Made by a program: the position numbers and the translations under genes
Shown here: in pieces, positions 7,370 to 61,566 of the stretch
Position numbering within the stretch: position 1 is the first letter of the stretch
Layout: each line of letters starts with the position of its first letter
The notes under the pieces: generated by a model
Database searches by the model: none
Seen by the model: only the letters and a program-made list of their open reading frames with translations
Told to the model about the DNA's origin: nothing
Assembly (NCBI RefSeq): GCF_000183725.1
Contig: NC_014762.1
Span: 2,170,001 to 2,234,000, forward strand
Length of the DNA: 64,000 nt
Origin: Sulfuricurvum kujiense DSM 16994
GTDB taxonomy: Bacteria > Campylobacterota > Campylobacteria > Campylobacterales > Sulfurimonadaceae
Reading direction: 5' to 3'

Positions 7370-7379
7370 GTTTTCCCTT

Positions 7380-8345
7380 TTAGTACCGTATTCCCGTTAC
7401 GGAACGGACTTTATCGATGATCGGAGCTGCAGTTGCACTCGCTTTGGCCGCACCGAGATTTAAAATCTCTCTCACTTCATCCTGATGTGCCTCGAAATAG
7501 GCTCTTCGTTCACGGTAAGGACGGAAATATTCCCATATTACGTCATGGGTATAGAGTTTGAAATGGCCGTGTCCTTCTCCCCCTTTTTTATACCTCTCCT
7601 GCAGCGCCGCACACTCTTCGTAATCCAAAAACAGTTTCGCGATGTTGTAAACGTTACAGTTTTCATACTCTTTAGGCTCTTCCATCGGTACCGCTTCGGT
7701 TACGATCTTTTTGATGATTTTCGACTGGATTTTCTCTTCACTGAAGATCGGAATCGTATTGCCGTAGCTTTTGCTCATCTTCTGCCCGTCGATCCCCGGA
7801 ACGGTCGCAACGTTCTCATCGACACGAAATTCAGGGAGTACAAATAGATCGCCGTATTGATTGTTAAATTTCACCGCGATATCACGGGCGATCTCGACGT
7901 GCTGAATCTGATCTTTTCCGACCGGAATCACTTCGGAACCGAACAGCAAAATATCGGCCGCCATCAAGACAGGATACGAAAAAAGGCTGTGATTACTCGC
8001 AATCCCTTTGGCTACTTTATCTTTATAGCTGTGTGCCCGTTCCAACAATCCCATCGGCGTAAATCCGGACAATACCCAATAAAGCTCCAATACTTCTTTA
8101 ACATCCGACTGTACCCAAAAGGTACTTTTTTGCGGGTCCATCCCCAGAGCTAAGAAGTCTGTCGCCGCCTGCATTGTCAGCCGTGAGAGCCGTTCGCCGT
8201 CGCTGAGTGAACTCATTGCATGATAATTGGCAATAAACGCAAATACTTCATGATCGTTTTGTGATTCGATCATCGCCTTGATCGAACCGAAATAGTTTCC
8301 AATATGTAAATCGCCTGATGGCTGAATTCCGGTTAATACTCTCAA
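7380..8345 (-). CDS. trpS: Tryptophanyl-tRNA synthetase
   Basis: Class I aminoacyl-tRNA synthetase of 321 aa, normal for the bacterial short form. HIGN (in GDLHIGNYFGS) lies near the N-terminus and KMSKS (in GQKMSKSYGN) lies in the second half. The first residues MRVLTGIQPSG are the usual start. It heads a reverse-strand run with gmhA, gmhB, the asparaginase-like gene and ccoI. Confidence 0.97.
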   Translation of the reverse strand: MRVLTGIQPSGDLHIGNYFGSIKAMIESQNDHEVFAFIANYHAMSSLSDGERLSRLTMQAATDFLALGMDPQKSTFWVQSDVKEVLELYWVLSGFTPMGLLERAHSYKDKVAKGIASNHSLFSYPVLMAADILLFGSEVIPVGKDQIQHVEIARDIAVKFNNQYGDLFVLPEFRVDENVATVPGIDGQKMSKSYGNTIPIFSEEKIQSKIIKKIVTEAVPMEEPKEYENCNVYNIAKLFLDYEECAALQERYKKGGEGHGHFKLYTHDVIWEYFRPYRERRAYFEAHQDEVREILNLGAAKASATAAPIIDKVRSVTGIRY

Positions 8346-8414
8346 AATTATCTCCTTGAATAGAGAATATTTTACCGCAGAGTCTCTTAAGCTTCCTCTT
8401 AAGAAAAGATATGC

Positions 8415-8420
8415 TATATT
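8415..8420 (+). promoter_or_regulatory. -10 element for hpf
   Basis: TATATT lies 31 nt upstream of the chosen ATG at 8452, followed by AAAAGGA just before the start codon. Its position supports the short start and makes the in-frame ATG at 8356 unlikely. Confidence 0.5.
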
Positions 8421-8451
8421 TTTTGACAGTTCACTATCAAAAGGATTTACA

Positions 8452-8787
8452 ATGAATGTACAAATACGCTCAAAAGAGATTAAACTTACCCAACATTTAA
8501 ATGATCATATTGCTACCGCTATTGAAAATTTTAAACGATACCATCTTGATATTACGACCGTAAACGTTATGATTACCAAAGAGAAAAAAGGGGTCGGTGT
8601 CGAATTCGACATGCATATCGCTCATGCACAGCCCGTCGTTATCTCCGATATTGACGAAGATCTCGATACCGCTATCGACATGGCGATCGAACGCGCTAAC
8701 AAAGCGCTTCGCCGCCTCCATGATAAGATGAAAGATCACCACGCTACCTCACTTCGCGAAATTGAGGTCATCGAAGAAGAAGCTTAA
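8452..8787 (+). CDS. hpf: Ribosome hibernation promoting factor, short form
   Basis: A 111-aa HPF/YfiA-type protein that binds the 30S subunit in slow growth. It opens with MNVQIRSKEIKLTQHL and has the beta-alpha-beta-beta-beta-alpha pattern with the basic end of helix 2 (ANKALRRLHDKMKDHH). No long-form C-terminal dimerisation domain is present. An in-frame ATG at 8356 would add 32 residues that match nothing in the family, and the promoter and RBS lie inside that stretch, so 8452 is chosen. Confidence 0.9.
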   Translation: MNVQIRSKEIKLTQHLNDHIATAIENFKRYHLDITTVNVMITKEKKGVGVEFDMHIAHAQPVVISDIDEDLDTAIDMAIERANKALRRLHDKMKDHHATSLREIEVIEEEA

Positions 8788-8790
8788 TTA

Positions 8791-8868
8791 GAACGCCAAA
8801 GGAATGCATCCCTTTGGCTACGCTAGCCGCTATGGCACTAAAGCTTGTCCCTGAAGGGACAGATTTTC
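8791..8868 (+). repeat. Modular hairpin repeat (modules A and B)
   Basis: Module A is the stem GCCAAAGG/CCTTTGGC at 8795-8802 and 8811-8818, followed by CTACGCTA. Module B is CACTAAAGCTT followed by a GTCCC-tgaa-GGGAC hairpin (8847-8860) and CAGATTTT. The same module B is found at 36326-36420 with GCCCC/GGGGC instead. It lies between hpf and trxC, probably as the hpf terminator. Confidence 0.7.
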
Positions 8869-8877
8869 GAGGTTATA

Positions 8878-9309
8878 ATGTCTAAAATCAACGTCGTCTG
8901 CCCCCACTGCGGGGGTGTCAATGCTATCCCCATCAAAGATTCGTATGCTAAAGCCGCATGCGGTCACTGCAAAGCCTCGCTTCTCGATACCAAACCCATC
9001 TCGGTAGATACTTCCTCATTTGATCGACTTATGCTCAATGACGAACGTCTTATTATCGCCGATTTTTGGGCACCGTGGTGCGGACCGTGCCGAAGTATGG
9101 CACCGTCCTTCGAAGAAGCGGCACGCCATTTTCCCCTCAAAGCCCAGTTTATCAAAATCAACACCGAAGAGCAGCAGCACCTCGGGGGACGTTTCGGCAT
9201 CCGATCCATTCCGACCGTTATTGCCTTTAAAAACAACCGTATTGTCGATCAGTTCAGCGGAGCCTTGCCTGCTTCTCAAATTATCGCTTTCGTTAAAAAG
9301 CACCTGTAG
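8878..9309 (+). CDS. trxC: Thioredoxin 2 (zinc-containing)
   Basis: Thiol-disulfide oxidoreductase of the TrxC type, 143 aa. The N-terminus carries CPHCGG and CGHCKA, two CxxC pairs that should bind one zinc. The thioredoxin fold follows with the active site WCGPC and the cis-proline segment RSIPTV. The ATG at 8878 is preceded by a GAGG and gives the usual MSKINVVCPHC start. An upstream in-frame ATG at 8845 would begin inside the repeat. Confidence 0.93.
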   Translation: MSKINVVCPHCGGVNAIPIKDSYAKAACGHCKASLLDTKPISVDTSSFDRLMLNDERLIIADFWAPWCGPCRSMAPSFEEAARHFPLKAQFIKINTEEQQHLGGRFGIRSIPTVIAFKNNRIVDQFSGALPASQIIAFVKKHL

Positions 9310-9360
9310 CGATTAATCTTTTTTCGCTATTCTTCCTCACTTCATTCATCAGGAAAATAA

Positions 9361-9807
9361 ATGTATAACTGGATTTTGTGGTTTCATATCATCTCAATGG
9401 TCTCATGGTTCGCGGTGCTCTTTTACCTTCCCCGTCTTTTTGTCTATCACGTCGAAAACGGAACCAATAACGGATTTGTCGAAGTGGTCGAAGTGATGGA
9501 AATGAAGATATACAAATATATCGGTGTTCCGTCATTCTGGGCGACACTGCTCTCAGGGGTAGCTTTGATCGTTCTCTCGACAGCGCACTATAACGGGGTC
9601 AATGTATTTGCTATGGGGGGATGGATGCACGCGAAACTGACACTCGTCGCGCTTTTGGCAGTCTATTTCTTTTCTTTGGGAAGATACCGTTTAAAACTCA
9701 AAGAGAATACGGCGTATAAAAGCGGGAAGTTTTTCCGTATCTATAATGAAATCCCTACTTTACTATTAATGGGGATTGTCGCTCTCGTTATCGTAAAACC
9801 TTTCTAA
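9361..9807 (+). CDS. hemJ: Protoporphyrinogen oxidase HemJ
   Basis: A 148-aa membrane protein of the HemJ (UPF0093) family, which converts protoporphyrinogen IX to protoporphyrin IX in many bacteria without HemG or HemY. Four hydrophobic helices are seen. The N-terminal WILWFHIISMVSWFA carries the conserved histidine. The length is typical. It fits a heme-rich organism and complements hemB at 21.5 kb. It converges with der 14 bp downstream. Confidence 0.88.
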   Translation: MYNWILWFHIISMVSWFAVLFYLPRLFVYHVENGTNNGFVEVVEVMEMKIYKYIGVPSFWATLLSGVALIVLSTAHYNGVNVFAMGGWMHAKLTLVALLAVYFFSLGRYRLKLKENTAYKSGKFFRIYNEIPTLLLMGIVALVIVKPF

Positions 9808-9821
9808 GAGGTTTTACTTAA

Positions 9822-11357
9822 TTACCACATCGACCGTTTTTTATGCGGTTGCGGTTTCTTCTTCTGATTTTTCGCTTTCGCTTTAAAAAGAACCGGAGTC
9901 CCCTCAAAATCAAACTGCTCACGTAACTGATTCGTCAAATAGCGGCGATAACTGAAATGTAGCCCCTGCGGCTTGTTCATAATCAGTGCAATACGCGGAG
10001 GACGGATATCGTACTGCGTCGCAAAATAGAGGCGGATATTCATCCCGTTGATACTCGGGAGGATATGTTTGCGCATCGCCGCTTGGATAACCTCATTCAG
10101 TTTACCCGTCGAAATACGCTGTGAATAGTTCTCGTTGATTTTGAGGAGCATTTCAAAAATCTTGTGTACCCGCTGTTTGCTCTGCGCCGAAATCGTGATG
10201 ATCGGAGCATAGCTGAGGAATTTGAAGCGGTCGCGCACTTCGGCGATAATTTTGTCGTAATCTTCTCGCGGAGCCATATCCCATTTGTTCAGGACGATCA
10301 GACACGCCAGACGGTTTTTATCGACGAATCCCGCGATTTTCTCATCCAGATCCATAAACGGCTGTGACGCATCGAGGACAAGCAACGCGATATCCGCCGT
10401 CTCCAACATCTCTTCGGTACGCATAAGAGCGTATTTTTCAATCCCGAGGATTTTTCCCCGTTTGCGAATCCCCGCCGTATCGATAAAGGTGATCTTTTTA
10501 TCGTTGTATTCGACCGTTTCGTCGATCGGATCGATCGTCGTTCCCGCAACCGAACTCACCACCGAACGGTCTTCTCCGAGCAATGCGTTGAGGAGTGAAC
10601 TTTTACCGACGTTGACACGACCGATGATCGCCACTTTCATTTGATTGACGTCACCCGCTTCGTACTCTTTGACAATACCGCGATACGCCTCTTCAAGCGC
10701 TTCTATCGACGTTTCCTCTTCTTCGTCATCCTCTTCGGGAATAAAGAATCCGTCGTCCTCATCCTCATCTTCGAACTCGTCGTCCTCTGCCGAAGCTCTC
10801 ATAGCGGCATCAAAACCGTCCAGTTCATCTTCCGCAACAACGACATCATTTTCCGTTTTCACGATGGACGATTCGGGAAGTTCCGAAGCAATCCAGTTCA
10901 AAAGCGGCAAAAGGGATCGATTGTGGGCAACCGAAATTCCGAAAATTCGGTCGGTTCCGAATTCATAGTACTCCCACAGTTTTTCCTGCATCTTGTCGTT
11001 ATCGATTTTATTGACGACCAAAGCGATCGCTTTTCCCATAGATTCAAGCTCATAAAAAAGCTTTTTATCATCCTCTTCGGGGAGACTTTTCCCGTCCACC
11101 ATAAAGAGAATAATATCGGCTTCATGCGCTGCTTTGAGAGATTTCTCCTTGATGCGGTCGTAGAGTTCACACCCTTCGTCAAGCCCCCCCGTATCGAGGA
11201 TCTCTACTTCTTTGTCCACCACCACGGCAACACGCTTTTTAACATCGCGCGTCGTTCCCGCCTGTTCGGAGGTAATCGCATCGCGTTGTTTGAGCAAACG
11301 GTTAAAGAGGGAACTTTTGCCGACATTCGGACGACCGATGATCGCTAATTTTTTCAT
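9822..11357 (-). CDS. der: GTPase Der (EngA), ribosome assembly
   Basis: Double-GTPase needed for 50S subunit assembly. The first G domain starts at the N-terminus with GRPNVGKSSLFN and has DTGG. The second starts near residue 240 with GRVNVGKSSLLN and has DTAG. A KH-like domain forms the C-terminus and ends in a basic tail (KKKPQPHKKRSMW). At 511 aa it is longer than usual because of an acidic linker at about residues 175-230, with long runs of D and E, between the two G domains. Confidence 0.96.
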   Translation of the reverse strand: MKKLAIIGRPNVGKSSLFNRLLKQRDAITSEQAGTTRDVKKRVAVVVDKEVEILDTGGLDEGCELYDRIKEKSLKAAHEADIILFMVDGKSLPEEDDKKLFYELESMGKAIALVVNKIDNDKMQEKLWEYYEFGTDRIFGISVAHNRSLLPLLNWIASELPESSIVKTENDVVVAEDELDGFDAAMRASAEDDEFEDEDEDDGFFIPEEDDEEEETSIEALEEAYRGIVKEYEAGDVNQMKVAIIGRVNVGKSSLLNALLGEDRSVVSSVAGTTIDPIDETVEYNDKKITFIDTAGIRKRGKILGIEKYALMRTEEMLETADIALLVLDASQPFMDLDEKIAGFVDKNRLACLIVLNKWDMAPREDYDKIIAEVRDRFKFLSYAPIITISAQSKQRVHKIFEMLLKINENYSQRISTGKLNEVIQAAMRKHILPSINGMNIRLYFATQYDIRPPRIALIMNKPQGLHFSYRRYLTNQLREQFDFEGTPVLFKAKAKNQKKKPQPHKKRSMW

Positions 11358-11381
11358 AGACTTCCTAGTATGTATGCCTTT

Positions 11382-11399
11382 TCGGGACTGCTGTCCCGA
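11382..11399. repeat. Small hairpin with an ACTGCTG-type apex
   Basis: TCGGGAC-TGCT-GTCCCGA is a 7-bp perfect stem between der and the divergent phosphoribosyltransferase. The apex resembles the GGCACTGCTGCC apex of the large structured repeats, so it may be a degraded relative. Confidence 0.45.
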
Positions 11400-11474
11400 C
11401 GGCTGCGCTTGTATTGCGTTTTTCGCTGCGCTTTATTAATTGATGTTTTATTATAGCGCAGATGCCCTTATGAT

Positions 11475-11942
11475 ATGATTGCACCAATGATATACTATGA
11501 TTATAAACGATTTTGTACCGATGTTCAAAGTTTGACGAAGCAATGCGAAGCGTTTCGTCCCGATACCATTCTCGCCGTCGCACGCGGAGGAATGACCCTT
11601 GGCCATGCCCTCTCCATGGCTCTGGATGTCCGCAATCTGCAAAGCATCCGGACCGAAAGCTACGACGGGGAGGTCCAACGAAACAACATCAACGTGTACG
11701 GTTCATGCGATCTCTCAGCCTCAAAACGGATTTTGGTCGTCGACGATATTGTCGACAGCGGTCAGACTTTGATGCACTTAATGCCGTTTTTACGCTCGCT
11801 CAATCCTGCGGCCGAATTGAAAATCGCTACCCTCTTTACCAAACAAAGCGCTCTTATGCAGCCGGACTTTTCCTTACATGAAGCTACGGATTGGATTGAC
11901 TTTTTTTGGGAAAGAGATTTTTTAAAAGAGGGTTCGCTATAA
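11475..11942 (+). CDS. Phosphoribosyltransferase-family protein
   Basis: A 155-aa type I phosphoribosyltransferase fold. The PRPP-binding loop is ILVVDDIVDSGQTL near residue 90, and AVARGGMTLGHAL is the pyrophosphate loop. The substrate is uncertain; hypoxanthine/xanthine-type or a nucleoside-salvage role is possible. ATGs at 11475 and 11487 are both possible starts. MetK follows 42 bp downstream on the same strand. Confidence 0.85.
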   Translation: MIAPMIYYDYKRFCTDVQSLTKQCEAFRPDTILAVARGGMTLGHALSMALDVRNLQSIRTESYDGEVQRNNINVYGSCDLSASKRILVVDDIVDSGQTLMHLMPFLRSLNPAAELKIATLFTKQSALMQPDFSLHEATDWIDFFWERDFLKEGSL

Positions 11943-11984
11943 TCCGTGCAACCACAAATTTAAACATTTTTCCCAAGGATATTT

Positions 11985-13142
11985 ATGTCTAAAGAGTATA
12001 TTTTCACTTCTGAATCGGTTACCGAGGGGCATCCCGATAAAATGGCCGATCAAATCAGCGATGCGATTTTGGACTATATTATCGAACATGATCCCAAAGC
12101 ACGTGTAGCCTGCGAGACGCTCGTATCGAACGGGTTTTGCGTTATCGCAGGCGAACTCAAAACAACCACGTACGCCCCGATGCAGGAGATTGCCCGCCAA
12201 GTCGTACGGGAAATCGGCTATACCGATGCAACCTACGGATTTGATTACCGCTCATGCGCCGTCTTAAACGGTATCGGAGAACAATCCCCCGATATCAACC
12301 AAGGTGTCGATCAAAAGAGCGGCGAAATCGGTGCCGGCGACCAGGGGCTTATGTTCGGTTATGCATGCCGCGAAACCGATGTTTTGATGCCGCTGCCGAT
12401 CTATCTCTCCCACCGTCTCGCCGAGCGTCTGGCAAAAGTACGCAAAGAGGGGATTATCCCCTACCTCCGACCGGACGGAAAAACCCAGGTGAGTGTTCGT
12501 TATGTCGATGATAAACCGGTATCGGTCGAAACCGTTGTCGTCTCCACCCAGCACGCCCCTGAAATTTCTCAGGAAAAACTCCATGCCGATGTCATCGAAG
12601 AGGTCATTAAAGCGGTCATCCCAGCCGAACTCATGTCTCCAAACATCGTCTATCATATCAATCCGACCGGAAAATTCGTCATCGGCGGTCCTCAAGGGGA
12701 TGCCGGACTGACCGGACGCAAAATCATCGTCGATACCTACGGCGGAGCCTGCCCTCACGGCGGCGGCGCTTTCAGCGGAAAAGACCCCACCAAAGTCGAC
12801 CGTTCCGCCGCCTACGCCGCCCGTTATGTCGCCAAAAATCTTGTCGCTTCGGGGGCTTGCGAACGTGCAACGATTCAAGTTTCGTATGCTATCGGCGTCG
12901 TTCATCCTATCTCTATTATGGTAAATGCGCACGGAACGGCTGTAGTGCCTGAAGAGAAGCTCGAAGCGTGTGTCAAAGAGCTTTTTAACCTTACCCCTAA
13001 AGGGATTATCGAATCGCTTGATTTGCTCCGCCCTATTTATCGAAAAACAGCGACTTACGGCCATTTCGGGCGGGAACTCAGTGAATTTACATGGGAAAAA
13101 ACGGATAAGGTGGACGCTATCCGCAACTATCTGGGCCTATAA
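11985..13142 (+). CDS. metK: S-adenosylmethionine synthetase
   Basis: Makes SAM from methionine and ATP. The 385 aa match the family. The N-terminal [20 protein letters not shown] carries the ATP-binding histidine, the central [12 protein letters not shown] hexapeptide region is present, and the glycine-rich loop is [29 protein letters not shown] precedes the ATG. A bidirectional-looking hairpin terminator follows at 13176. Confidence 0.98.
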
Positions 13143-13175
13143 TTCTCTTTCCGTAACACTCTAACTGTAATATGC

Positions 13176-13207
13176 AAAAACCCCCTAATTTTTTAGGTGG
13201 GTTTAAA
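13176..13207 (+). terminator. Intrinsic terminator after metK
   Basis: A-rich lead-in, then CCCCCTAA-tttt-TTAGGTGGG with a TTT tail. It sits 34 nt past the metK stop and just upstream of the ferredoxin promoter. Confidence 0.7.
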
Positions 13208-13217
13208 ATTCTTCTGT

Positions 13218-13223
13218 TATAGT
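13218..13223 (+). promoter_or_regulatory. -10 element for the ferredoxin gene
   Basis: TATAGT is 31 nt upstream of the ATG at 13255. A strong AAGGAG at 13243-13248 lies 6 nt before the start codon. Confidence 0.5.
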
Positions 13224-13254
13224 TACCGCATATTTATCAACCAAGGAGAACCCT

Positions 13255-13539
13255 ATGGCAGTAGTCATTAATGATACCTGTATTAACTGCGGCGCTTGCA
13301 TCGACGAGTGTCCGGTAGAAGCGATCGTAGACGAGGACGATAACCCAACGGGTGAAGAAATCTATTACGTTTACGGTGACAAATGTGTCGAGTGTGTCGG
13401 TCACCATGATGAGCCAGCGTGTGCAACAGCTTGTCCAACTGAGGGTTGTATCACTTGGGATGAAATCGGTGCAAGTCCTGCACACCGTGATGATATCACG
13501 GCAGAAATGCGTTCTTCTAAAGCGAACGTCGTTAACTAA
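13255..13539 (+). CDS. 2[4Fe-4S] ferredoxin
   Basis: A 94-aa bacterial-type ferredoxin, a low-potential cytoplasmic electron carrier. The first cluster motif is CINCGACIDECP (CxxCxxCxxxCP). The second is CVECVGHHDEPACATACP, with an 8-residue insert between the second and third cysteines, as in the YfhL/Alvin-type ferredoxins. The long C-terminal extension ends SKANVVN. A strong RBS suggests high expression. I expect it to serve pyruvate or 2-oxoglutarate:ferredoxin oxidoreductases, but none are in the window. Confidence 0.9.
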   Translation: MAVVINDTCINCGACIDECPVEAIVDEDDNPTGEEIYYVYGDKCVECVGHHDEPACATACPTEGCITWDEIGASPAHRDDITAEMRSSKANVVN

Positions 13540-13557
13540 TCACTTATGATTTCAAAT

Positions 13558-13626
13558 GCCGAAGGGATTTATCCCTTTGGCTACACTGCTGCTAAAGCAT
13601 AAAGTTCGCCTTTTTCCCACAGATTT
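13558..13626 (+). repeat. Modular hairpin repeat (module A with a degenerate tail)
   Basis: Module A stem GCCGAAGGG/CCCTTTGGC with an ATTTAT loop at 13558-13581. CTACACTGCTGCTAAAGC follows, and the segment ends near CCCACAGATTTTA, echoing module B. It lies after the ferredoxin stop and is the likely terminator. Confidence 0.65.
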
Positions 13627-13682
13627 TATACTTTCTCGTTTTTACCCTTCCTTCTTTAATATTACTTAAATTATTGTTTCGC

Positions 13683-13688
13683 TATAAT
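13683..13688 (+). promoter_or_regulatory. -10 element for ndk
   Basis: TATAAT in the context CGCTATAATCC, 38 nt upstream of the ndk ATG. Confidence 0.6.
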
Positions 13689-13726
13689 CCGCCTCTATTT
13701 TATACACACAAAGAACAGGAGCATTG

Positions 13727-14140
13727 ATGGAACAAACGTTGTCAATCATCAAGCCTGACGCCGTAGCAAAAGGTGTCATCGGAAAAATTTTAGATCGTTT
13801 CGAAAGCAACGGCCTTAAAATCGCGGCTATGAAAAAAGTTCAACTCTCTCGTCAAGACGCTGAAGCGTTTTACGCAGTACATGCTGCTCGCCCTTTCTTC
13901 AACGATCTCGTTGATTTCATGGTAAGCGGTCCGGTTGTTATTACCGTTCTTGAGGGTGAAAACGCTATCCTTAAAAACCGTGATTTGATGGGTGCAACCA
14001 ACCCTAAAGAAGCTGCACCTGGAACTATCCGTGCAGACTTTGCTGAAAACATCGATGCAAATGCCGTTCACGGAAGTGACTCTGCTGAAAACGCTGCAAT
14101 TGAAATCGCGTTTTTCTTTTCAGGGCGCGAAATTTCATAA
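13727..14140 (+). CDS. ndk: Nucleoside diphosphate kinase
   Basis: Transfers the gamma phosphate between nucleoside triphosphates and diphosphates. The 137 aa are normal for the family. The start [13 protein letters not shown] is canonical, and the catalytic His lies in NAVHGSDS near the C-terminus. ATG at 13727 is chosen over an adjoining in-frame TTG at 13724 because AGGAG at 13717-13721 is then 5 nt away. It heads the run ndk-yceD-rpmF-plsX-fabH. Confidence 0.97.
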
Positions 14141-14145
14141 TTGCC

Positions 14146-14517
14146 ATGAAAATAGCATTTAAGAAATTGGGATCACAGCCGCTTCATTTTGAGGCAAATA
14201 GTGACAAAGCTTTTTTTTCGGGTGATTTAATCCTTAAAAAAGGCAATCTAGCCCAATTAAACGGTACAATTACAGGGAGTATTTCGATTCCCTGCGACAT
14301 TTGTGCCGAAGAGGTAGAAAAATCTTTAAATGAAGAAGTTTCTTTTTACCTAAGCGATGGGATATATGAGGGCACTGACGAAGAGTTGGATGTCGTCGAA
14401 ATCGACCGATCAATGATTGATATGGAAGAACTTCTCAACGCGGAAATCGAACTGATCAAAAGCGACTATTTTTGTTGCGAAAACTGCGAAGGAACCTCGT
14501 TAGATCGAGAATTCTAA
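14146..14517 (+). CDS. yceD: YceD/DUF177 family protein
   Basis: A 123-aa member of the DUF177 family, which is almost always encoded just upstream of rpmF and is linked to 23S rRNA processing or ribosome assembly. It carries a CDIC pair in the middle and CCENC near the C-terminus, four cysteines that could bind a metal. It starts 5 nt after the ndk stop and precedes rpmF across a hairpin repeat. Confidence 0.85.
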   Translation: MKIAFKKLGSQPLHFEANSDKAFFSGDLILKKGNLAQLNGTITGSISIPCDICAEEVEKSLNEEVSFYLSDGIYEGTDEELDVVEIDRSMIDMEELLNAEIELIKSDYFCCENCEGTSLDREF

Positions 14518-14530
14518 TTTTCGCAAGTGC

Positions 14531-14592
14531 GCTGGGCATCCCGCCGAGGGAAACCCAGTGTTAACGTAGCCGAGGGGATGTATTCCCTCGGC
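14531..14592 (-). repeat. Modular hairpin repeat, reversed module A
   Basis: GCCGAGGG/CCCTCGGC stem at 14569-14592 in reverse orientation to the other module A copies (reverse complement has CGGCTACGTTA). It is preceded by a CTGGG/CCCAG stem at 14532-14558. It lies between yceD and rpmF, so it may tune transcription or protect the rpmF message. Confidence 0.6.
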
Positions 14593-14623
14593 GTTTAAAT
14601 CAAAGTAGAAAGGACTATAAAAG

Positions 14624-14773
14624 ATGGCAGTACCTAAAAGAAGAGTGAGTCATTCTCGCGCTGCAAAACGCAGAACTCACTATAAAATTTCTCTAGCGCG
14701 TCCCGTAAAAGATAAAGACGGCACGTACAAATTGTCTCACTATGTCAACCCGACAACCGGTGAGTATAAATAA
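14624..14773 (+). CDS. rpmF: 50S ribosomal protein L32
   Basis: A 49-aa ribosomal protein starting [19 protein letters not shown]. It has no cysteine, so it is the zinc-free (C-minus) type of L32. AAAGGACTATAAAAG precedes the start. It sits in the conserved yceD-rpmF-plsX-fabH order, 3 bp before plsX, coupling ribosome and phospholipid synthesis. Confidence 0.97.
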
Positions 14774-14776
14774 TCA

Positions 14777-15766
14777 ATGATTAGAATTGCAATTGATGCA
14801 ATGGGCGGGGACTTCGGTCCCGAACCGATTGTTAAAGGGACACTTGAAGCACTCAAAGAGAAGAGTTTTCAACCAATTCTAGTTGGTAAAAAAGATGAAA
14901 TTTTATCTTTATTACCCAAGGGCTATAAAGATAAAATTTTAATTGTCGATGCAGATGATGTGATCGACATGGGCGATGCGGCAACCGATGCGCTAAAGCG
15001 GCAAGAAAGCTCTATCTATAAAGCGATAGAACTTGTCAGAAACGGCGAAGCCGACGGCGTTGTCAGTGCAGGACACAGCGGTGCGACTATGACACTTGCA
15101 ACACTGCGATTGGGACGTCTTAAAAATGTTTTACGTCCGGCTTTGGTTACCTCGATGCCGACAAAAAGCGGCAAGCGAAGTATCCTAATGGATGCGGGTG
15201 CCAATGTCGACTGCAAAGCGGAGCATCTTTTTCAATTCGGGATTATGGGATACTACTATGCCCATGACATGTACAAACTGGATAATCCGAGAGTCGGATT
15301 GTTAGCCAACGGCGAAGAAGACTCAAAAGGAAACGAAGTTACCAAAGAGGCATTCAAAATGCTCGAAGGGCAAAAGGGGTTTATCGGAAACGTTGAAGGG
15401 AACAATATCTTCGACGGAAGCTGTGACGTTATCGTATGTGACGGCTTTATCGGAAACCTTGTCCTTAAAGCATCTGAGGGTGTGGCATCGACCATCAGCT
15501 TTTTTATCAAAGAGTATATCCGAAAATCGCCTGTTGCGATTACCGGCGCGCTTTTGATGCGCAAAGTATTTAAACTGCTTAAAAAGCAGATCGATTACGC
15601 TGAAATCGGCGGTGCCCCATTGGTAGGTATCAAAGGGTGTGCTATCGTCAGTCACGGAAAAAGCAATCCAAAAGCGATCAAAAATGCGATTTTTCAAGCG
15701 ATACGCTATGTCAATACCGGCGTAAATGAGCATATCGAAAACCGTCTTGAAGAGCTTAAAAAATAA
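14777..15766 (+). CDS. plsX: Phosphate acyltransferase PlsX
   Basis: Makes acyl-phosphate from acyl-ACP for glycerolipid synthesis, acting at the membrane surface. The 329 aa start [21 protein letters not shown], which is the family hallmark, and include the [15 protein letters not shown] segment. It begins 3 nt after rpmF and is followed 25 bp later by fabH. Confidence 0.97.
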
Positions 15767-15791
15767 ACGTCGATTCCTATAAAGGCTAATT

Positions 15792-16793
15792 ATGTACGCT
15801 GCGTTTCGTTCTATCGGAGCTTATGTTCCCACTAAAATTCTTACCAATGCTGAACTCGAAGTAATGGTTGATACCAGTGATGAGTGGATCACCAAACGTA
15901 CCGGCATCAAAGAACGGCATATTGCGGCAGAGAATGAAACCACCAGCGATATGGGTGTCAAAGCGGCCCAAAAAGCAATAGATCGTTCAGGAATCGATAA
16001 AAGCCAGATCGATATGCTTATCTGCGCGACTATCTCTCCCGATTATTTTTGTATGCCCTCTACCGCTACGATCATCGCTACCAAACTCGGTCTTGAAAAA
16101 ATCACCGCATTTGATGTATCCGCCGCATGTACCGGATTTGTGTATGCACTCAGTGTCGCCAAAGCATTTATCGAATCGGGAATGAAAAAAAATGTCCTGA
16201 TTGTCGGGGCCGAACGGCTAAGTACCATTACCGACTATACAGACCGCGGAACCTGTATCCTCTTTGGGGACGGTGCCGGAGCCGCACTTATCACTGCAAC
16301 GGAAAATAAATCCGAAGCGATCATCGATATCCATACAGGATCAGACGGTGCGTATGCTGATTTATTGATGACTCCGAATGGTGGAAGCGGTTCAGCCCAT
16401 GATGAGCTTGACCGTGAAGCGGCAGGATGCTTTATGAAAATGAAAGGGAACGAGACGTTTAAAGTTGCCGTCCGTACCCTCACTAACGACGTTGTGGAAA
16501 TTTTGGAACAAAATAATATCCTCTCTTCCGCCATTACCCATTTCGTTCCCCATCAAGCCAATTACCGTATTATCAAAGCGGTCGGTGATGCACTTGAGCT
16601 CAAAGACGAACAAGTCGTATTGACTGTTGAAAAATACGGAAATACTTCAGGTGCATCGATCCCTATGGCCATCAACGATATTTATGAGTCAGGACGTTTA
16701 CAGGAAGGCGATTTGATGCTCCTTGATGCATTCGGCGGCGGTTTGACCTGGGGAAGCGCCCTTGTTCCGTTTGCTGGCAAAGGTATCCGCTAA
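15792..16793 (+). CDS. fabH: 3-oxoacyl-ACP synthase III (KASIII)
   Basis: Starts fatty acid synthesis by condensing acetyl-CoA with malonyl-ACP. The thiolase-fold protein has 333 aa with catalytic Cys113 in SAACTGF, the His motif PHQANYRI and the Asn in [10 protein letters not shown]. The length is slightly above the E. coli enzyme. It is the last gene of the rpmF-plsX-fabH cluster. Confidence 0.97.
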
Positions 16794-16834
16794 AAAACTC
16801 CTGCTACAATTACAGATCTATTCAAAGGTCTGTA

Positions 16835-17200
16835 ATGATTTATTCCAATCCCCTTATCTACATCGAACTTCACGAGAGTGAAATCCCCTGGCTAAAAATT
16901 TTCACCCATACAGCTCATAAAGAGTTTTCAGAGTGTTCCAAAGAAGAAAAGAAAGCTATCTTCGATGCTCTCGATATTATCGAAAAAGAGATGCTCGCAT
17001 ACTTTGTACCTGAAAAGATCAATATCGCATCGTTTGGAAATATGTTACCGAGAGTCCATTGGCATATCATGGCACGTTTTAGTGATGACAGCTATTTTCC
17101 TGAACCGATGTGGGGGGCTAAACAAAGAGAGGGATTTACATTAAAGACTCCGATGGAGCCTTTTTTAGAGAAAGTAAAAAGGGAATTAGATTCCCTTTAA
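16835..17200 (+). CDS. HIT-family protein
   Basis: A 121-aa protein with the histidine-triad core RVHWHIMAR: the second and third His of HxHxH are kept, including the catalytic one, and the first is replaced by Arg. The family hydrolyses or transfers nucleotides from dinucleotides or AMP conjugates. The substrate is unknown. A TACAAT box lies at 16805-16810, and a 9-bp inverted repeat (16810-16818/16827-16835) covers the RBS up to the start codon. Confidence 0.8.
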   Translation: MIYSNPLIYIELHESEIPWLKIFTHTAHKEFSECSKEEKKAIFDALDIIEKEMLAYFVPEKINIASFGNMLPRVHWHIMARFSDDSYFPEPMWGAKQREGFTLKTPMEPFLEKVKRELDSL

Positions 17201-26543: not shown

Positions 26544-26602
26544 GCATGAAAGTGTAACATAAAAAGCAAATACCGCAATTAACATGATTTAGGGCATCGA
26601 CT

Positions 26603-26633
26603 TAACACTAATGTAACACTTTTTTTCTATTAT
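26603..26633 (+). promoter_or_regulatory. Direct-repeat operator and -10 of the copper receptor
   Basis: TAACACT occurs at 26603-26609 and again at 26614-26620, one 11-bp turn apart, within CTTAACACTAATGTAACACT. TATTAT (-10) follows at 26628-26633 after 7 nt. The same arrangement with the same spacing is found at 59138-59168. Such tandem 11-bp-phased sites overlapping -35 are typical of OmpR-family activators. Confidence 0.65.
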
Positions 26634-26664: not shown

Positions 26665-28731
26665 ATGAAGAAAATTACTCTCCTCTCTTTAGCCGCGATT
26701 GCTGCGCTGGCTACAGAACCTGTCACGATTCAAAAAATCACCGTCGAAGCCCAAGCGCCTAAAGCTGACGGAAAAAATGTAGCTGCCGATGAAATGGTCA
26801 AATTCTCGCGTCAGTCTGATCTGGGCGAAATGCTCTCCAATACTCTCCCGGAAGTTAATCTTGTTCGTAACAGCGGTGTAGGTAACGATATCATCGTCCG
26901 CGGATTTCGTAAAGATAACATCAATGTTACTATCGATGATGCCAAAGTATGCGGGGCCTGCCCGAATCGTATGGACCCTCCCGCTATGCACGTATCATCA
27001 AGTCAAATCGCTAATGTCGAAGTACAAGAGGGTCCGTTTGACGTAACCCAATTCGGAAGTCTCGGCGGCAGAATCAATGTTGTTACCAAAGATCCGGCAA
27101 AAGGGATTCACGGTGAAATATCGGCAACAGCAGGCAGCTATGATTACCGCAAGCTTTCAACCGTGCTCGAGGGAGGAAACGACTCCGTTCAGGCACTTGT
27201 GGGTTTCAGCCGCGAAACATCGGGACAATACAAAGACGGTAACGGCCGTACCCTTACAGAGCAAACCGATCTTTTGGCGACAATGGCAGCACAAAAATAC
27301 GCTGATGCCTATAAAGATATGGATGCATACGATCGTAACAGTTTTTGGACAAAAATCGTAGGCAATATCGGAAGCAATCAAAAACTCACCCTGAGCTATT
27401 TTGGCGACCGTGCCGATGATGTTTTATATCCTCGGTACAAAATGGATGCCCAAAAAGACGATACCGATATGTTCAACGTTAAATACCAGTTGTTTAACCT
27501 GTCTGATTTCTCGGATGAACTGAAAATCGAAGGCTACCGTTCAAAAGTTGAACACGTCATGGGAACCGATTTCAGAAAAGGTGCTACAACCCCGGCTGCA
27601 ACCATGGTAGCACCTGTTGATGCTACAATCAAAGGGGCTTCGATTGAAAATACACTAACGTTGGCCGGAACAAAAGTATCTGTAGGAGTAGACGGCAGTG
27701 TACGCAATTGGGACGGAACAAAAGGGTCAAAAATGAACCCTTCAAGATTTATCCTCCTTCCGGATGTCGATACCAAAAATATTGCGCTATACGCTAAAGC
27801 TTCAAAATCAATCGGGAAATACGATTTGAGCGCGGGGGCACGTTATGACGATACGACGATCGACCCAAAACAGTCTCTGGCCTCCCACGATGCCGTCAAT
27901 GCTGCTTATCTTAACGGAATTGAAGACCGCGACTATAATAATGTCAGTGCAAATATTTTGGCCAAATACCACTACACAAACAATACCAATGTTTTTATGG
28001 GCCTCGGTCAATCCATACGAGTTCCTGATGCTAAAGAGCTTTATTGGGTTACGGTCAATACGACAGGAACCGCAAATATCAACTCTGCCATCAACGGAGG
28101 TAATGACAATCTCAAAGCTACCAAAAACCGTGAGATTGATCTTGGGGCCGAACATACTGCCGGTAACTTCCATGTAAAAGGGACCGCATTTTACAGCGAT
28201 TTAAAAGATTTCATCTATCAATATAAAACAGGGGCATCTACCAATACATGGGCCAATATCGATGCGCGTATTGTCGGATTGGATCTGCAAGCTGATTACA
28301 TGCTGAACAATGAATGGCGTATCGAATCGGGTGCCGCCTATCAGAAAGGGACCAAAAAAGATCCGAATGTTCTAGGACAAAACGATAACGATTTAGCTGA
28401 GATTCCTCCGATGAAGGGTCGTGTCGCTCTTGTATTCGACAACTCTGCGGACTATGCTATGGCTGAAGTTATCGGAGCACGCTTTCAAACCATTGACAGC
28501 GATAACGGGGAACAGGAAGTTGCGGGATATGGAATCCTAAATCTCAAATACGGGCACGATTTCCAAAACGGCTTCTCGTTGATGGCCGGGGTCAATAACT
28601 TCTTTGACCGTACCTATGCCGTTAATAACGGATACATCGGCAACGAACTAATCACCGGAGACGGTATTGACCCGCTCGTTCTCAATGAACCGGGACGTAA
28701 TTTCTACGCAACCCTAAGCTACAAATTCTAA
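26665..28731 (+). CDS. TonB-dependent receptor, OprC/NosA copper type
   Basis: Outer-membrane TonB-dependent receptor of 688 aa. The signal peptide ends near residue 16, and a plug domain (about 45-150) and a 22-strand barrel ending in ATLSYKF (terminal Phe) follow. CGACPNRMDPP at 96-106 carries C99xxxM103, and EHVMGTDF carries H297xM299. These match the CxxxM and HxM copper ligands known from OprC, which also occur in NosA. No siderophore-type signals are seen. I infer copper uptake, perhaps for cbb3 oxidase or nitrous oxide reductase. It has its own promoter with the TAACACT box. Confidence 0.85.
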   Translation: MKKITLLSLAAIAALATEPVTIQKITVEAQAPKADGKNVAADEMVKFSRQSDLGEMLSNTLPEVNLVRNSGVGNDIIVRGFRKDNINVTIDDAKVCGACPNRMDPPAMHVSSSQIANVEVQEGPFDVTQFGSLGGRINVVTKDPAKGIHGEISATAGSYDYRKLSTVLEGGNDSVQALVGFSRETSGQYKDGNGRTLTEQTDLLATMAAQKYADAYKDMDAYDRNSFWTKIVGNIGSNQKLTLSYFGDRADDVLYPRYKMDAQKDDTDMFNVKYQLFNLSDFSDELKIEGYRSKVEHVMGTDFRKGATTPAATMVAPVDATIKGASIENTLTLAGTKVSVGVDGSVRNWDGTKGSKMNPSRFILLPDVDTKNIALYAKASKSIGKYDLSAGARYDDTTIDPKQSLASHDAVNAAYLNGIEDRDYNNVSANILAKYHYTNNTNVFMGLGQSIRVPDAKELYWVTVNTTGTANINSAINGGNDNLKATKNREIDLGAEHTAGNFHVKGTAFYSDLKDFIYQYKTGASTNTWANIDARIVGLDLQADYMLNNEWRIESGAAYQKGTKKDPNVLGQNDNDLAEIPPMKGRVALVFDNSADYAMAEVIGARFQTIDSDNGEQEVAGYGILNLKYGHDFQNGFSLMAGVNNFFDRTYAVNNGYIGNELITGDGIDPLVLNEPGRNFYATLSYKF

Positions 28732-57751: not shown

Positions 57752-59128
57752 ATAGAATATGGATTATTAGGGTTACTCCCGCCGCTTATCGCTATTCTTC
57801 TCGCCCTCTTCAGCCGTTCCGTATTTGTCGCTTTAGCGATGGCCGTTTTGGTCGGCGAATTTATCATTGCCGATTTTAATCCGTTGAATACTTTTATACT
57901 GATGGCGGAGCGATTCGGAGGACTGCTAAGCGAGGGGTGGGTACTCAAAACCCTTGCGTTTGCCGTCATGGTCGGTTCAGCCATGGCATTGATAGAGCGA
58001 AGCGGCGGCGTGGACGGTCTGGTCCATGAGCTCAGTATCAAACGCTCATGGGTACAAAGCAAACGGGGGGCTCTGATGCCCAGCTTTATCGCAGGGATTG
58101 TCGTTTTTATCGAGTCCTCCATCACATCGCTCGTAGCCGGTGCGATCGGACGCCCGTTTTGTGACCGCTACGGTATCAGCCGCGCCAAACTCGCCTTTGT
58201 CTGCGATTCCACGTCGGCACCGGTTTGCTCACTCATCCCTCTAAACGGTTGGGGAGCTCTTTTATTGGGACTCATCGGCGGGCAAATCACGGCGGGACTT
58301 ATTACCGGAGAGAGCGCAACCTGGCTTGTACAATCTGTCGCTTTCAATTTTTACGCCTACATCGCCCTTATCATCACCTTTGTCACCATCTGGTTTGAAA
58401 TCGATATCGGGCCGATGCGGCACGCTGCCGTTGTTCCTCCCGCCATTGAATGTTCGGATGATGACAGAGGTCACTTCGGGCTTTTTTTATGGCCGATGGT
58501 GTGGATGATTACCGGAGTCATCGCATTTATGTTTATGACGGGCGAAGGAGATATTTTCAAAGGTTCCGGCTCAACCTCTATTTTCTATACCCTTATCATC
58601 ACACTAATCCTAATGTGGGGATATTATCGATTCAAAAATGCTCTCACTACCCGTGAATTTTTATCTACTACCCTTCAGGGTGCGAAAGCAATGGCTCCGA
58701 TCGCCGCAATTTTGTTATTTGCTTTTGCTATCGGAGGGGTCAGTTCGGATATGGAGGTGGGTAAATACCTCGCATCGTTTATCGGCGACTATCTCCCTTC
58801 TTCTTATTTGGCCGGAGCTATTTTTATTTTAGCGGCAATCATTGCATTTGCAACCGGAACGAGTTGGGGAACATTTAGCATTATGCTGCCGATTGCCGTC
58901 CCTTTAGCTGTCGGGCTTGACGCGCCGATTGCACTATGTATGGGCGCCGTCATCTCCGGAGGTGTTTTTGGAGACCACTGCTCTCCTATCTCCGATACCA
59001 CGATTATCTCTGCAATGGCAAGCGGATGTGAAGTAGGAGAACATACAAAAACACAGCTTCCATACGCTCTTATTTCAGCAGGAGCGGCTCTTATTTTATT
59101 TATTATGTTCGGATTTCTTTTAGCGTAA
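57752..59128 (+). CDS. NhaC-family Na+/H+ antiporter, apparently with an ATA start
   Basis: A polytopic antiporter of about 458 aa. The frame is open upstream of the first ATG (57839) for 29 more codons and encodes EYGLLGLLPPLIAILLAL, which is the expected first membrane helix. The only codon near a good RBS (AAAAAGGA at 57739-57745) is ATA at 57752. ATG at 57839 would remove the helix. DSTSAPVCSLIPLNGWG and FGDHCSPISDTTIIS are the family's ion-site regions. The start is therefore ATA or a recent mutation of ATG. Confidence 0.8.
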   Translation: MEYGLLGLLPPLIAILLALFSRSVFVALAMAVLVGEFIIADFNPLNTFILMAERFGGLLSEGWVLKTLAFAVMVGSAMALIERSGGVDGLVHELSIKRSWVQSKRGALMPSFIAGIVVFIESSITSLVAGAIGRPFCDRYGISRAKLAFVCDSTSAPVCSLIPLNGWGALLLGLIGGQITAGLITGESATWLVQSVAFNFYAYIALIITFVTIWFEIDIGPMRHAAVVPPAIECSDDDRGHFGLFLWPMVWMITGVIAFMFMTGEGDIFKGSGSTSIFYTLIITLILMWGYYRFKNALTTREFLSTTLQGAKAMAPIAAILLFAFAIGGVSSDMEVGKYLASFIGDYLPSSYLAGAIFILAAIIAFATGTSWGTFSIMLPIAVPLAVGLDAPIALCMGAVISGGVFGDHCSPISDTTIISAMASGCEVGEHTKTQLPYALISAGAALILFIMFGFLLA

Positions 59129-59137
59129 TTCTCATCT

Positions 59138-59168
59138 TAACACTCTTGTAACACTGTTTTGTCATAAT
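59138..59168 (+). promoter_or_regulatory. Direct-repeat operator and -10 of the DUF2202 gene
   Basis: TAACACT at 59138-59144 and 59149-59155, 11 bp apart, within CTTAACACTCTTGTAACACT. CATAAT (-10) at 59163-59168 is 7 nt further on. This matches the copper-receptor promoter at 26603 in 18 of 20 bases of the box. Confidence 0.65.
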
Positions 59169-59204
59169 AAAATGTATTACTATACAGAAAAAGGAGACTT
59201 TATT

Positions 59205-59666
59205 ATGAAAATAAAAAACAGTGCTGTTTCTTCTTCACTCACACAAACCGACGTTACCAAATTGCTTTACATGATCGAAGAAGAGAAAATGGCCAGAGAC
59301 GTGTATGATGCTTTATACGAACAAACCGGTTTAAGTATCTTTGACAAAATATCCGATTCCGAACAAACGCATTATTCTACACTCCTTAAAACGGCTTCAA
59401 AATTAGGAGTGGATACCGGCTCTTTATCGACACAAGCGGGAGTATTCACCGACGTTACCGTCCAAAGCCTCTATGACCAACTGATTTTGCAAGGATCACA
59501 ATCGACATCTAATGCTATCGGAGTCGGTATTTTGATCGAAGAGACCGATATCAGCGATTTGCAAACATCGATCGATGAGACAACCGTATCTTCTCTTGAT
59601 CAGGTATATTCCAATCTGTTAAATGCCTCTTTAAACCACCTTTGGGCGTTTGACAGCATAGCTTAA
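59205..59666 (+). CDS. DUF2202 ferritin-like protein
   Basis: A 153-aa protein of the DUF2202 family, a four-helix ferritin-like fold. The first helix has MIEEEKMARDVY, the second has DSEQTHYSTLL, and the third has ILIEETDISDL. The paired Glu and His residues (EEEK, ExxH, EET) resemble a di-metal site. The function is not known. The ATG at 59205 follows AAAAGGAGAC; the ATG at 59172 would lie within the leader. It is controlled by the TAACACT box and is just upstream of a two-component pair. Confidence 0.8.
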   Translation: MKIKNSAVSSSLTQTDVTKLLYMIEEEKMARDVYDALYEQTGLSIFDKISDSEQTHYSTLLKTASKLGVDTGSLSTQAGVFTDVTVQSLYDQLILQGSQSTSNAIGVGILIEETDISDLQTSIDETTVSSLDQVYSNLLNASLNHLWAFDSIA

Positions 59667-59750
59667 CATCCGGCCTGAGAACGTCACATAACGTTCTCGC
59701 TTCCAAAACACTCTCATTGGTTTCACATCGTTTTCATGCTACAATTTTTC

Positions 59751-60419
59751 ATGATTAAAAGTAAAATTCTCCTTCTTGAAGACGATCCGAACCTATCCGA
59801 AAGTGTCAGTGAATACTTAGAAGAACAAGGGTTTGAAGTTGTCTGCGTCTACGATGCCCACACGGCGGAAGACAGCCTCTATGAGCAAAAGTATGATTTG
59901 CTCCTCCTGGATGTGAATGTCCCTTCGGGTGACGGTTTTTCACTTCTCAAAGAGAGCCGGAAAAGGGGCAATTCCACCCCCGCTATTTTTATCACATCCC
60001 GTAATGCGATGAGTGATGTCGAAGCGGGATTCGAGAGCGGAGGAGACGACTATATCCGAAAACCGTTTGCCCTTAAAGAGCTGCTTCTTCGAATACAGAC
60101 CATTCTAAAGCGGAATTTTTATCACAACCCCACCGATGTTCTGACACTGGCTGAGGGAATTACCTACGATATCAATAACCAAGTGCTAACCGTTTACGGA
60201 GATGTCCAAAATCTCCAGCTAAAAGAGCATAAGCTTCTCAAGCTCTTCATCCAGCATAAAAATGAGCTCCTCTCTCATGAGATGATTATGGAAAATCTAT
60301 GGGATTACGATGAAATCCCTAGTGACGGAAGTCTGCGCACTTACATCAAAACGCTTCGCAAACTCCTCGGAAAGGACTCCATTGTCAGCCACAAACGCCT
60401 CGGGTATCAGTTTCGCTAA
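59751..60419 (+). CDS. OmpR-family response regulator
   Basis: A 222-aa DNA-binding response regulator. The receiver (1-120) has the acidic pair LLEDD, the phosphorylation site D54 in LLLDVNVPSG, and K in IRKPF. The C-terminal winged helix (about 135-222) ends LRTYIKTLRKLLGKDSIVSH and RLGYQFR. ATG at 59751 is used. The kinase gene overlaps its 3' end by 38 nt. It is the best candidate to bind the TAACACT boxes. Confidence 0.92.
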   Translation: MIKSKILLLEDDPNLSESVSEYLEEQGFEVVCVYDAHTAEDSLYEQKYDLLLLDVNVPSGDGFSLLKESRKRGNSTPAIFITSRNAMSDVEAGFESGGDDYIRKPFALKELLLRIQTILKRNFYHNPTDVLTLAEGITYDINNQVLTVYGDVQNLQLKEHKLLKLFIQHKNELLSHEMIMENLWDYDEIPSDGSLRTYIKTLRKLLGKDSIVSHKRLGYQFR

Positions 60420-61566
60420 ATACCGAACCCTCAAAAGCTTTCTGACCCTGTATGGGGTAATGTCGGTGTTAATCCTGGCACTGCTGGGAATTCTCTATTT
60501 TCAATACGCCAAATCGCTCATGCTCTCTTCCCATCGTCTTGCGATGCAGTTGGAATCTGAAAGCTACGTCCCCAAGCTCAAAAAATGGCTCGAAGACGAC
60601 CGAAATCTCTCCTCTTTCCCGAAAGATTTAGCCTATACGACAGCGCTTTACGGATACGATCAGCAGCCGATAGTTTCACGGCTGGATACCGCCGCCATCG
60701 ATTTTAAAGAGAATATCTATCTCTCAGCTGATCATGTCTATCTGATCATCCCCCTCTCACCGTACGGGATGGGGGAATATTATCTGATATTCGAAACTCA
60801 AGATGACGGACTATGGCGACAGCAAGCCCTGAAAATCACCCTTATTTTCGGAGCGGTTTTATTTCTGATGCTCTCAGGTGTCGGTTATCTCCTCTCCCGG
60901 CTGATTCTCCGTCCGATGAACGAGGCTATTGCCCTGCTCGATGATTTTATCAAAGATACCACCCATGAGCTCAATACCCCCGTCAGCGCTATTCTCACCA
61001 ATATCGAATCACTGGAGACGGATGCCCTTTCCCCCTCGGCACAAAAAAAGATAAAACGGATCGAAATCGCTTCACGTACCATTTCAACACTCTATGACGA
61101 CCTTACCTACCTCATCCTAAACCACGATCTTTCCGTTGAAAATACGACTCTCGATCTTAGCCGCCTTTTGCATGAGAGACTGGAGTATTTCCGCCATCGT
61201 ATCGAGCAAAAAAAACTTATTTTGGATTTGACGATCAGCCCTGATGTCTCACTCACCATCGATCTTACCAAAGCGACCCGTGTTATCGACAATCTTCTTT
61301 CAAACGCGATTAAATACAACCATCACGGCGGTACAATCAAAATCACTCTTCAGCCGCAAATGCTCTGTGTCGAAGATAACGGAATCGGTATTCCCGATGC
61401 GATGATCGAGCGGGTGTTTGAGCGCTACATGCGCGCCGATAAAAGTGTCGGAGGGTTCGGAATCGGACTGAATATCGTAGCGATGATTGCCAAAGAATAT
61501 AACTTGAATATTACGATTGAATCGGAAGAGAAAGTCGGAACAAAGATCTGCGTGACGTGGAGTTAG
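60382..61566 (+). CDS. Sensor histidine kinase
   Basis: A 394-aa membrane kinase. One N-terminal helix near residue 25 (LTLYGVMSVLILALLGILYF), a periplasmic part of about 110 residues, a second helix near 155, and then the dimerisation helix with H195 in TTHELNTPVSAIL. HATPase motifs VIDNLLSNAIKYN, VEDNGIGIP and GGFGIGLNIV follow. The start is TTG at 60382, 5 nt after AAAGGA; no ATG fits the frame there. It overlaps the regulator gene by 38 nt. Confidence 0.9.
   Translation: MSATNASGISFAKYRTLKSFLTLYGVMSVLILALLGILYFQYAKSLMLSSHRLAMQLESESYVPKLKKWLEDDRNLSSFPKDLAYTTALYGYDQQPIVSRLDTAAIDFKENIYLSADHVYLIIPLSPYGMGEYYLIFETQDDGLWRQQALKITLIFGAVLFLMLSGVGYLLSRLILRPMNEAIALLDDFIKDTTHELNTPVSAILTNIESLETDALSPSAQKKIKRIEIASRTISTLYDDLTYLILNHDLSVENTTLDLSRLLHERLEYFRHRIEQKKLILDLTISPDVSLTIDLTKATRVIDNLLSNAIKYNHHGGTIKITLQPQMLCVEDNGIGIPDAMIERVFERYMRADKSVGGFGIGLNIVAMIAKEYNLNITIESEEKVGTKICVTWS

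Follow-up and report, generated by a model that had tools for sequence, protein, structure and literature searches.

A shared operator-like box connects a DUF2202 gene of Sulfuricurvum kujiense with a predicted copper-acquisition regulon of Campylobacterota

The DUF2202 gene of Sulfuricurvum kujiense DSM 16994 lies between an antiporter-family gene and a two-component pair, here called RR1-HK1, and shares its promoter layout with a TonB-dependent receptor gene elsewhere in the window, by which we mean the whole 64,000-nucleotide stretch that was analysed. The features concerned are these:

57839-59128, plus strand: Na+/H+-antiporter-family gene (Pfam PF03553)
59138-59155, plus strand: putative operator box TAACACTCTTGTAACACT, 5' of DUF2202, an exact match to the pattern and an 11-bp direct repeat
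59163-59168, plus strand: -10 element CATAAT, 7 nt 3' of the DUF2202 box, read from the sequence
59205-59666, plus strand: DUF2202 ferritin-like protein of 153 aa (Pfam PF09968, 1.4e-35; alternative start at 59172)
59751-60419, plus strand: RR1, OmpR/PhoB-family response regulator (Pfam)
60382-61566, plus strand: HK1, sensor histidine kinase with a TTG start (Pfam HisKA, HATPase_c)
26603-26620, plus strand: putative operator box TAACACTAATGTAACACT, 5' of the TonB receptor, an exact match and kept at orthologous receptors
26628-26633, plus strand: -10 element TATTAT, 7 nt 3' of the receptor box
26665-28731, plus strand: OprC/NosA-type TonB-dependent copper receptor with CxxxM and HxM (best PDB match OprC, with aligned ligands)

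The gene order of the original prediction, DUF2202 followed by an OmpR-type regulator and then its kinase, holds, with all three on the plus strand; the HK1 TTG at 60382 falls inside the 3' end of RR1, and orthologues share this start region. Direct reading of the two promoters likewise bears out the 18-of-20-base likeness that had been claimed for them (CTTAACACTCTTGTAACACT at 59136-59155 against CTTAACACTAATGTAACACT at 26601-26620) and the identical 7-nt gap that separates each box from its -10. Both boxes are exact matches to TAACACTNNNGTAACACT, and the element they share is a direct repeat, TAACACT-N4-TAACACT, with an 11-bp period. No good -35 hexamer was found 17 nt 5' of the -10 at either promoter, so the box seems to replace the -35, and the box-to--10 spacing in the window matches that at most other boxes. 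PhoB-type operators are direct repeats of 11-bp period that occupy the -35 place at a fixed distance from the -10. The box has this same repeat layout and -10 distance, but differs from the Pho box in its TAACACT half-site and its metal-uptake targets. With an 11-bp-period direct repeat held at a fixed distance from the -10, the box has the layout of an OmpR/PhoB-family operator, to which binding is predicted.

The DUF2202 protein scores 122.9 bits against PF09968, above the gathering cut-off of 22, and is intact, with E26, E27, E53, H56, E112 and H145 kept. No signal peptide was found in the window protein, in which respect many relatives differ. The frame has its first ATG at 59172, but translation probably starts at the one at 59205, for which there is a ribosome-binding site; the 49-nt distance from the box to 59205 resembles that at OprC genes and supports this choice. 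Some 140 residues align with MJ0754 (PDB 3q4n; E = 1.6e-22), a DUF2202 protein that has the same Glu/His positions but is archaeal. A literature search covering few subscription papers found no paper on DUF2202. We know of no link between MJ0754 and copper or a two-component system.

The box recurs in the genome that contains the window (G000, 2.82 Mb in five contigs), with four exact copies of TAACACTNNNGTAACACT, where 0.008 would be expected, and three copies with one mismatch, against a single match at up to one mismatch for the reversed-pattern control. Summed over 37 genomes of the genus, 126 box matches compare with 21 for the reversed pattern. We set chance aside as a source of the likeness after this comparison of the count with expectation and with the reversed control. 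In G000 the genes 3' of these sites are DUF2202, pgm, one for a DsbD_2 protein, those for two OprC-type receptors (the one at 26665 and another) and those for two divergent TonB receptors accompanied by polyferredoxins. We took as chance the weak one-mismatch matches within rpsK, in other coding sequence and close to a ferredoxin gene. A weaker copy stands just 5' of ccoN, of the cbb3 oxidase, a copper enzyme (L125, L127; two mismatches in G000, one in G003), in the opposite direction, and these sites were dropped as targets for their orientation away from ccoN.

We sorted 107 distinct boxes of the genus by downstream gene, having fetched most but not all box sites and taking the best match among chosen reference proteins as the class of each target. 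OprC-type copper receptors (CxxxM-HxM) lie downstream of 36, other TonB receptors of 22, a pgm-pyrC-regulator-kinase-ExbBD operon of 19 and a CopZ-like HMA chaperone of eight, while one box was classed as 5' of a DsbD_2 protein and one, the window copy only, as 5' of DUF2202. The other 20 include four further DsbD_2-like proteins (one checked with Pfam), a gene resembling the PepSY_TM gene of locus L140, pyrC within the RR3 operon of G016, the presumed chance matches in rpsK and other coding sequence, and, left without a class, one box from G042 and one from the ccoN region. No efflux gene was seen 3' of the classified boxes, as far as these were read, though RR2/DUF2202 loci in other genomes do include RND pumps. 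At the divergent receptor pair of G000 (L123 2984-11358; G000:C4:2484983-2493357) the boxes stand back to back, and each receptor gene is followed by one for a secreted protein that matches no Pfam family and one for a NapH-like polyferredoxin, an arrangement in which reductive metal uptake is possible.

Beyond the genus, we examined 47 OprC-type promoters from families f1, f4, f5, f6, f7, f9, f18 and f20. The repeat is present at up to two mismatches in 27 (reversed control, none) and at up to three in 36 (reversed control, four), mostly 37-52 nt 5' of the start codon, with TTAACAC as its most constant stretch. TTAACACT is the form of the box in most other families, where the repeat still stands 5' of OprC. 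The sequences themselves show the box with its spacing and target set, as well as the linkage and the conservation, and the box marks what we predict to be a genus-wide regulon that is, in degenerate form, phylum-wide.

The copper link of the receptor at 26665, another element of the original prediction, is supported, with OprC its closest solved structure (8e-32) and both halves of the copper site conserved. Its plug motif CGACPNRMD and barrel motif EHVMG align with the OprC copper ligands Cys143/Met147 and His323/Met325 (PMC8610252), so that the plug CxxxM and barrel HxM characteristic of the OprC type are both present. Against the TIGR01778 (TonB-copper) equivalog model, its best NCBIfam match, it scores 215.7 bits, under the cut-off of 472.45, and we therefore describe it as OprC-like and not as an equivalog. 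All 34 OprC-type targets picked by CPNxM keep HxM. The receptor and its relatives resemble OprC/NosA in these ligands, as does the receptor of G268 in lying beside NosZ, while the Campylobacterota receptors are about 40-50% identical among themselves and are tied to an OmpR-type operator; the account of OprC/NosA in PMC8610252 makes no mention of two-component control. NosA is described as repressed by copper. The receptors labelled TonB_C and TonB_D and the one linked to PepSY had relatives of a general kind only (siderophore, PQQ, heme or B12). Some boxed receptors have a PepSY_TM gene next downstream, the layout of CrtA-PepSY_TM in Bordetella pertussis, where the uORF CruR, and not an operator-type box as here, controls the CrtA operon (PMC12914433); sequence comparison did not confirm membership of the PepSY-linked receptor in the CrtA family. 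Copper is the best-supported substrate, given the OprC ligands, the CopZ-like chaperone, the DsbD_2 proteins and the TonB receptors among boxed genes. From the identity of these targets we infer copper limitation as the signal.

The original prediction placed DUF2202 and the receptor under one regulator, and of this the shared operator, an OmpR-type regulator and the connection of DUF2202 to the receptor through the box are supported, but the choice of the adjacent RR1 is not. Control of both genes by RR1-HK1 through the shared box would fit the position of the pair beside DUF2202, its conservation in most genomes of the genus, the frequency with which DUF2202 lies beside an OmpR-type pair elsewhere and the resemblance of the RR1 recognition helix to those of RR2 and RR3. 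We nonetheless regard this reading as unlikely. Two genomes that are both 99% complete, G003 and G007, lack RR1, yet their OprC and other receptors keep boxes; in most genomes there is an overlap between RR1 and the antiporter-family stop, and RR1 has neither a promoter nor a box of its own; and G044, G055 and G057, three genomes from outside the genus whose RR1 match is about 57-62%, gave no box match at up to one mismatch. Direct coupling of the antiporter gene to RR1-HK1 is the normal state in the genus; in the window DUF2202 separates them. Given the absence of RR1 from the box-keeping G003 and G007 and its usual antiporter coupling, RR1 is probably not the box regulator, and as part of our best explanation RR1-HK1 would be a separate, antiporter-linked pair. 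The stretch 59671-59750, between DUF2202 and RR1, contains the inverted repeat GAGAACG...CGTTCTC together with what may be a separate RR1 promoter, TTGGTT-17-TACAAT, so the two genes may not share a transcript. The antiporter (57839-59128) has Tet(35) as its best NCBIfam match at 159 bits, so far under the cut-off of 750 that it gives no evidence of tetracycline resistance.

Linkage to the box, to ExbBD and to OprC is better for a second regulator, which lies outside the window:

G000:C4:2088998-2089651, minus strand: RR3, OmpR/PhoB-family regulator, about 140 kb from DUF2202

RR3 belongs to a pgm-pyrC-RR3-HK3-exbB-exbD operon with an exact box 5' of it, and is found in every genome of the genus, G003 and G007 included, but for three incomplete ones. 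The order pyrC-RR3-HK3-ExbBD recurs in families f1, f4 and f18. Boxes also accompany the pair elsewhere, 48 nt 5' of RR3-ExbB in G041, and after RR3-HK3 with a TonB receptor in G284 and with ExbB in G170, while OprC adjoins RR3-HK3 in G327 and G280 and, by coordinates, in G249, G294, G185 and G328. No box at up to one mismatch was found at the pgm-RR3 operon of G003, G007 and G020. HK3 reads as having two membrane helices joined by a loop of only about ten residues, and for this reason probably senses within the membrane. Its own box, its linkage to ExbBD across families and its adjacency to OprC in several genomes make RR3-HK3, on this genomic evidence, the most likely regulator of the box and a better fit than RR1. 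RR1, RR2 and RR3 all fall short of the cut-offs of the named regulator models; against TIGR01387 (cztR_silR_copR, for CopR/CusR/CzcR heavy-metal regulators; cut-off 279.2) they score 112.2, 93.1 and 138.5 bits, respectively.

RR2 is the regulator of a related pair, RR2-HK2, that is tied to DUF2202 in other genomes. The longer DUF2202 genes of the genus adjoin RR2-HK2, small Met-rich proteins and a TSP3-like protein, and DUF2202 genes there often have a sister box, TAACACTTCRCTAACACT, with unchanged spacing; the DUF2202-subtype box reads CTAACACT. The sister box occurs in 14 of 15 genomes with RR2 against 5 of 22 without it (p = 3e-5). All genomes of the genus in which DUF2202 was found have RR2 except G000, which lacks the RR2-HK2 pair (best RR2 match 45%), and the closest relative of the window protein (62%, G245) lies directly 5' of RR2-HK2. 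Within the genus only G000 has DUF2202 under a copper-type box, which makes the gene an accessory member of the regulon; it has probably joined the copper-uptake programme in this genome. The RR2-HK2 cassette recurs with its own box subtype (L104 3409-10248, L111, L119, L341, L357), with either DUF2202 or small Met/Gln-rich secreted proteins and the TSP3-like protein as partners, and no Pfam family matched those of the small proteins that were tested.

The similarity of the recognition helices among RR1, RR2 and RR3 means that RR1 might bind the box too and that overlapping binding is possible. Several paralogous regulators, RR1 as well as RR3, could then read the box, with DUF2202 integrating two signals. 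This is improbable in our judgement: the half-sites are alike, other cells hold two box subtypes together with two regulators, and DUF2202 partners different pairs in different genomes, but no site of mixed features was found, and the box subtype closely follows the presence of RR2, which suggests specific pairing between regulator and box. We consider it very improbable that the box serves a regulator outside the copper-responsive pairs, for example an orphan of the HP1021 kind. When reverse-complemented, TGTAACA does look like the HP1021 box, which we take to be TGTTWCW, and a search of the genome for the OmpR-type DNA-binding domain gives 26 matches, but TTAACACT and CTAACACT both lack an HP1021-type match while the repeat 5' of OprC stays, and copper receptors and TonB energisers, to which RR3 is linked, predominate among the targets.

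We return to RR3-HK3, and consider it likely that the box is the activator site of a Campylobacterota TonB/copper-acquisition regulon under this pair, into which DUF2202 has been recruited. In its phosphorylated form RR3 would bind both TAACACT half-sites, which lie 11 bp from each other on the same helix face, and in this position would stand in for the -35 and bring RNA polymerase to the -10, seven nucleotides further on. Its targets would be OprC-type and other TonB receptors, ExbBD, the CopZ-like chaperone and DsbD_2 membrane proteins, of which the receptors, ExbBD and the chaperone would raise copper import, and DUF2202 would buffer or store metal, either iron or copper, in the cytoplasm while that import is up. 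Having been tied to RR2-HK2 in relatives, DUF2202 would have entered the RR3 regulon in this species. In this scheme we infer RR3 binding, activation, the copper-limitation signal and the metal role of DUF2202.

Across the phylum, about half of the genomes with DUF2202 (about 20 of 42) encode an OmpR-type regulator or a kinase no more than 1.5 kb from it, and the lack of co-occurrence that would have refuted the original prediction was thus not seen. A box of related class precedes 17 of 47 DUF2202 genes across the phylum, against 2 of 103 background genes. DUF2202 and an OprC-type receptor co-occur in 37 of 46 genomes against 46 of 252 (298 genomes in total), a strong association but one confounded by phylogeny, since the listed members of f11 and f14 lack both. 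All of the parts come together in G268 (family f6), where 14 kb hold RR3-HK3, ExbB-ExbD, DUF2202-HK2-RR2-TSP3, TonB, a boxed OprC and a NosZ-like gene (L340, G268:C1:253000-270000, 3507-17001), a natural model locus for the circuit. More tentatively, and with less confidence than in the RR3 regulon itself, copper acquisition in Campylobacterota may run through a circuit of two related pairs, RR3-HK3 serving OprC, ExbBD and the chaperone and RR2-HK2 serving DUF2202 and the small Met-rich proteins, in which DUF2202 would handle a metal, perhaps copper, on a ferritin-like scaffold and could move between the branches.

OmpR-family metal regulons are already known as a kind, and the target set, the operator and the DUF2202 link appear to be new. 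CrdRS of Helicobacter pylori is also an OmpR-family copper two-component system of the same phylum, but it responds to copper by inducing the export and resistance genes crdAB and czcAB (PMC9696931), whereas the box stands before genes for import receptors, ExbBD and a chaperone. No two-component system for copper import in Campylobacterota was found in a literature that covered few subscription papers. A conserved operator, a candidate regulator and a target list make copper acquisition testable in sulfur-oxidising and denitrifying Campylobacterota, and DUF2202 gains a first functional setting beyond its fold. To our knowledge, few bacterial regulators switch copper import on. Nitrous oxide reductase, a copper enzyme whose action removes a greenhouse gas, is tied to the circuit by the G268 cluster. 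In other genomes (L105 in G042, L345 in G322 and L358 in G067) DUF2202 lies in operons with RND pumps and a regulator-kinase pair, sometimes with cytochrome c or CDF genes, an arrangement that points to metal or envelope stress.
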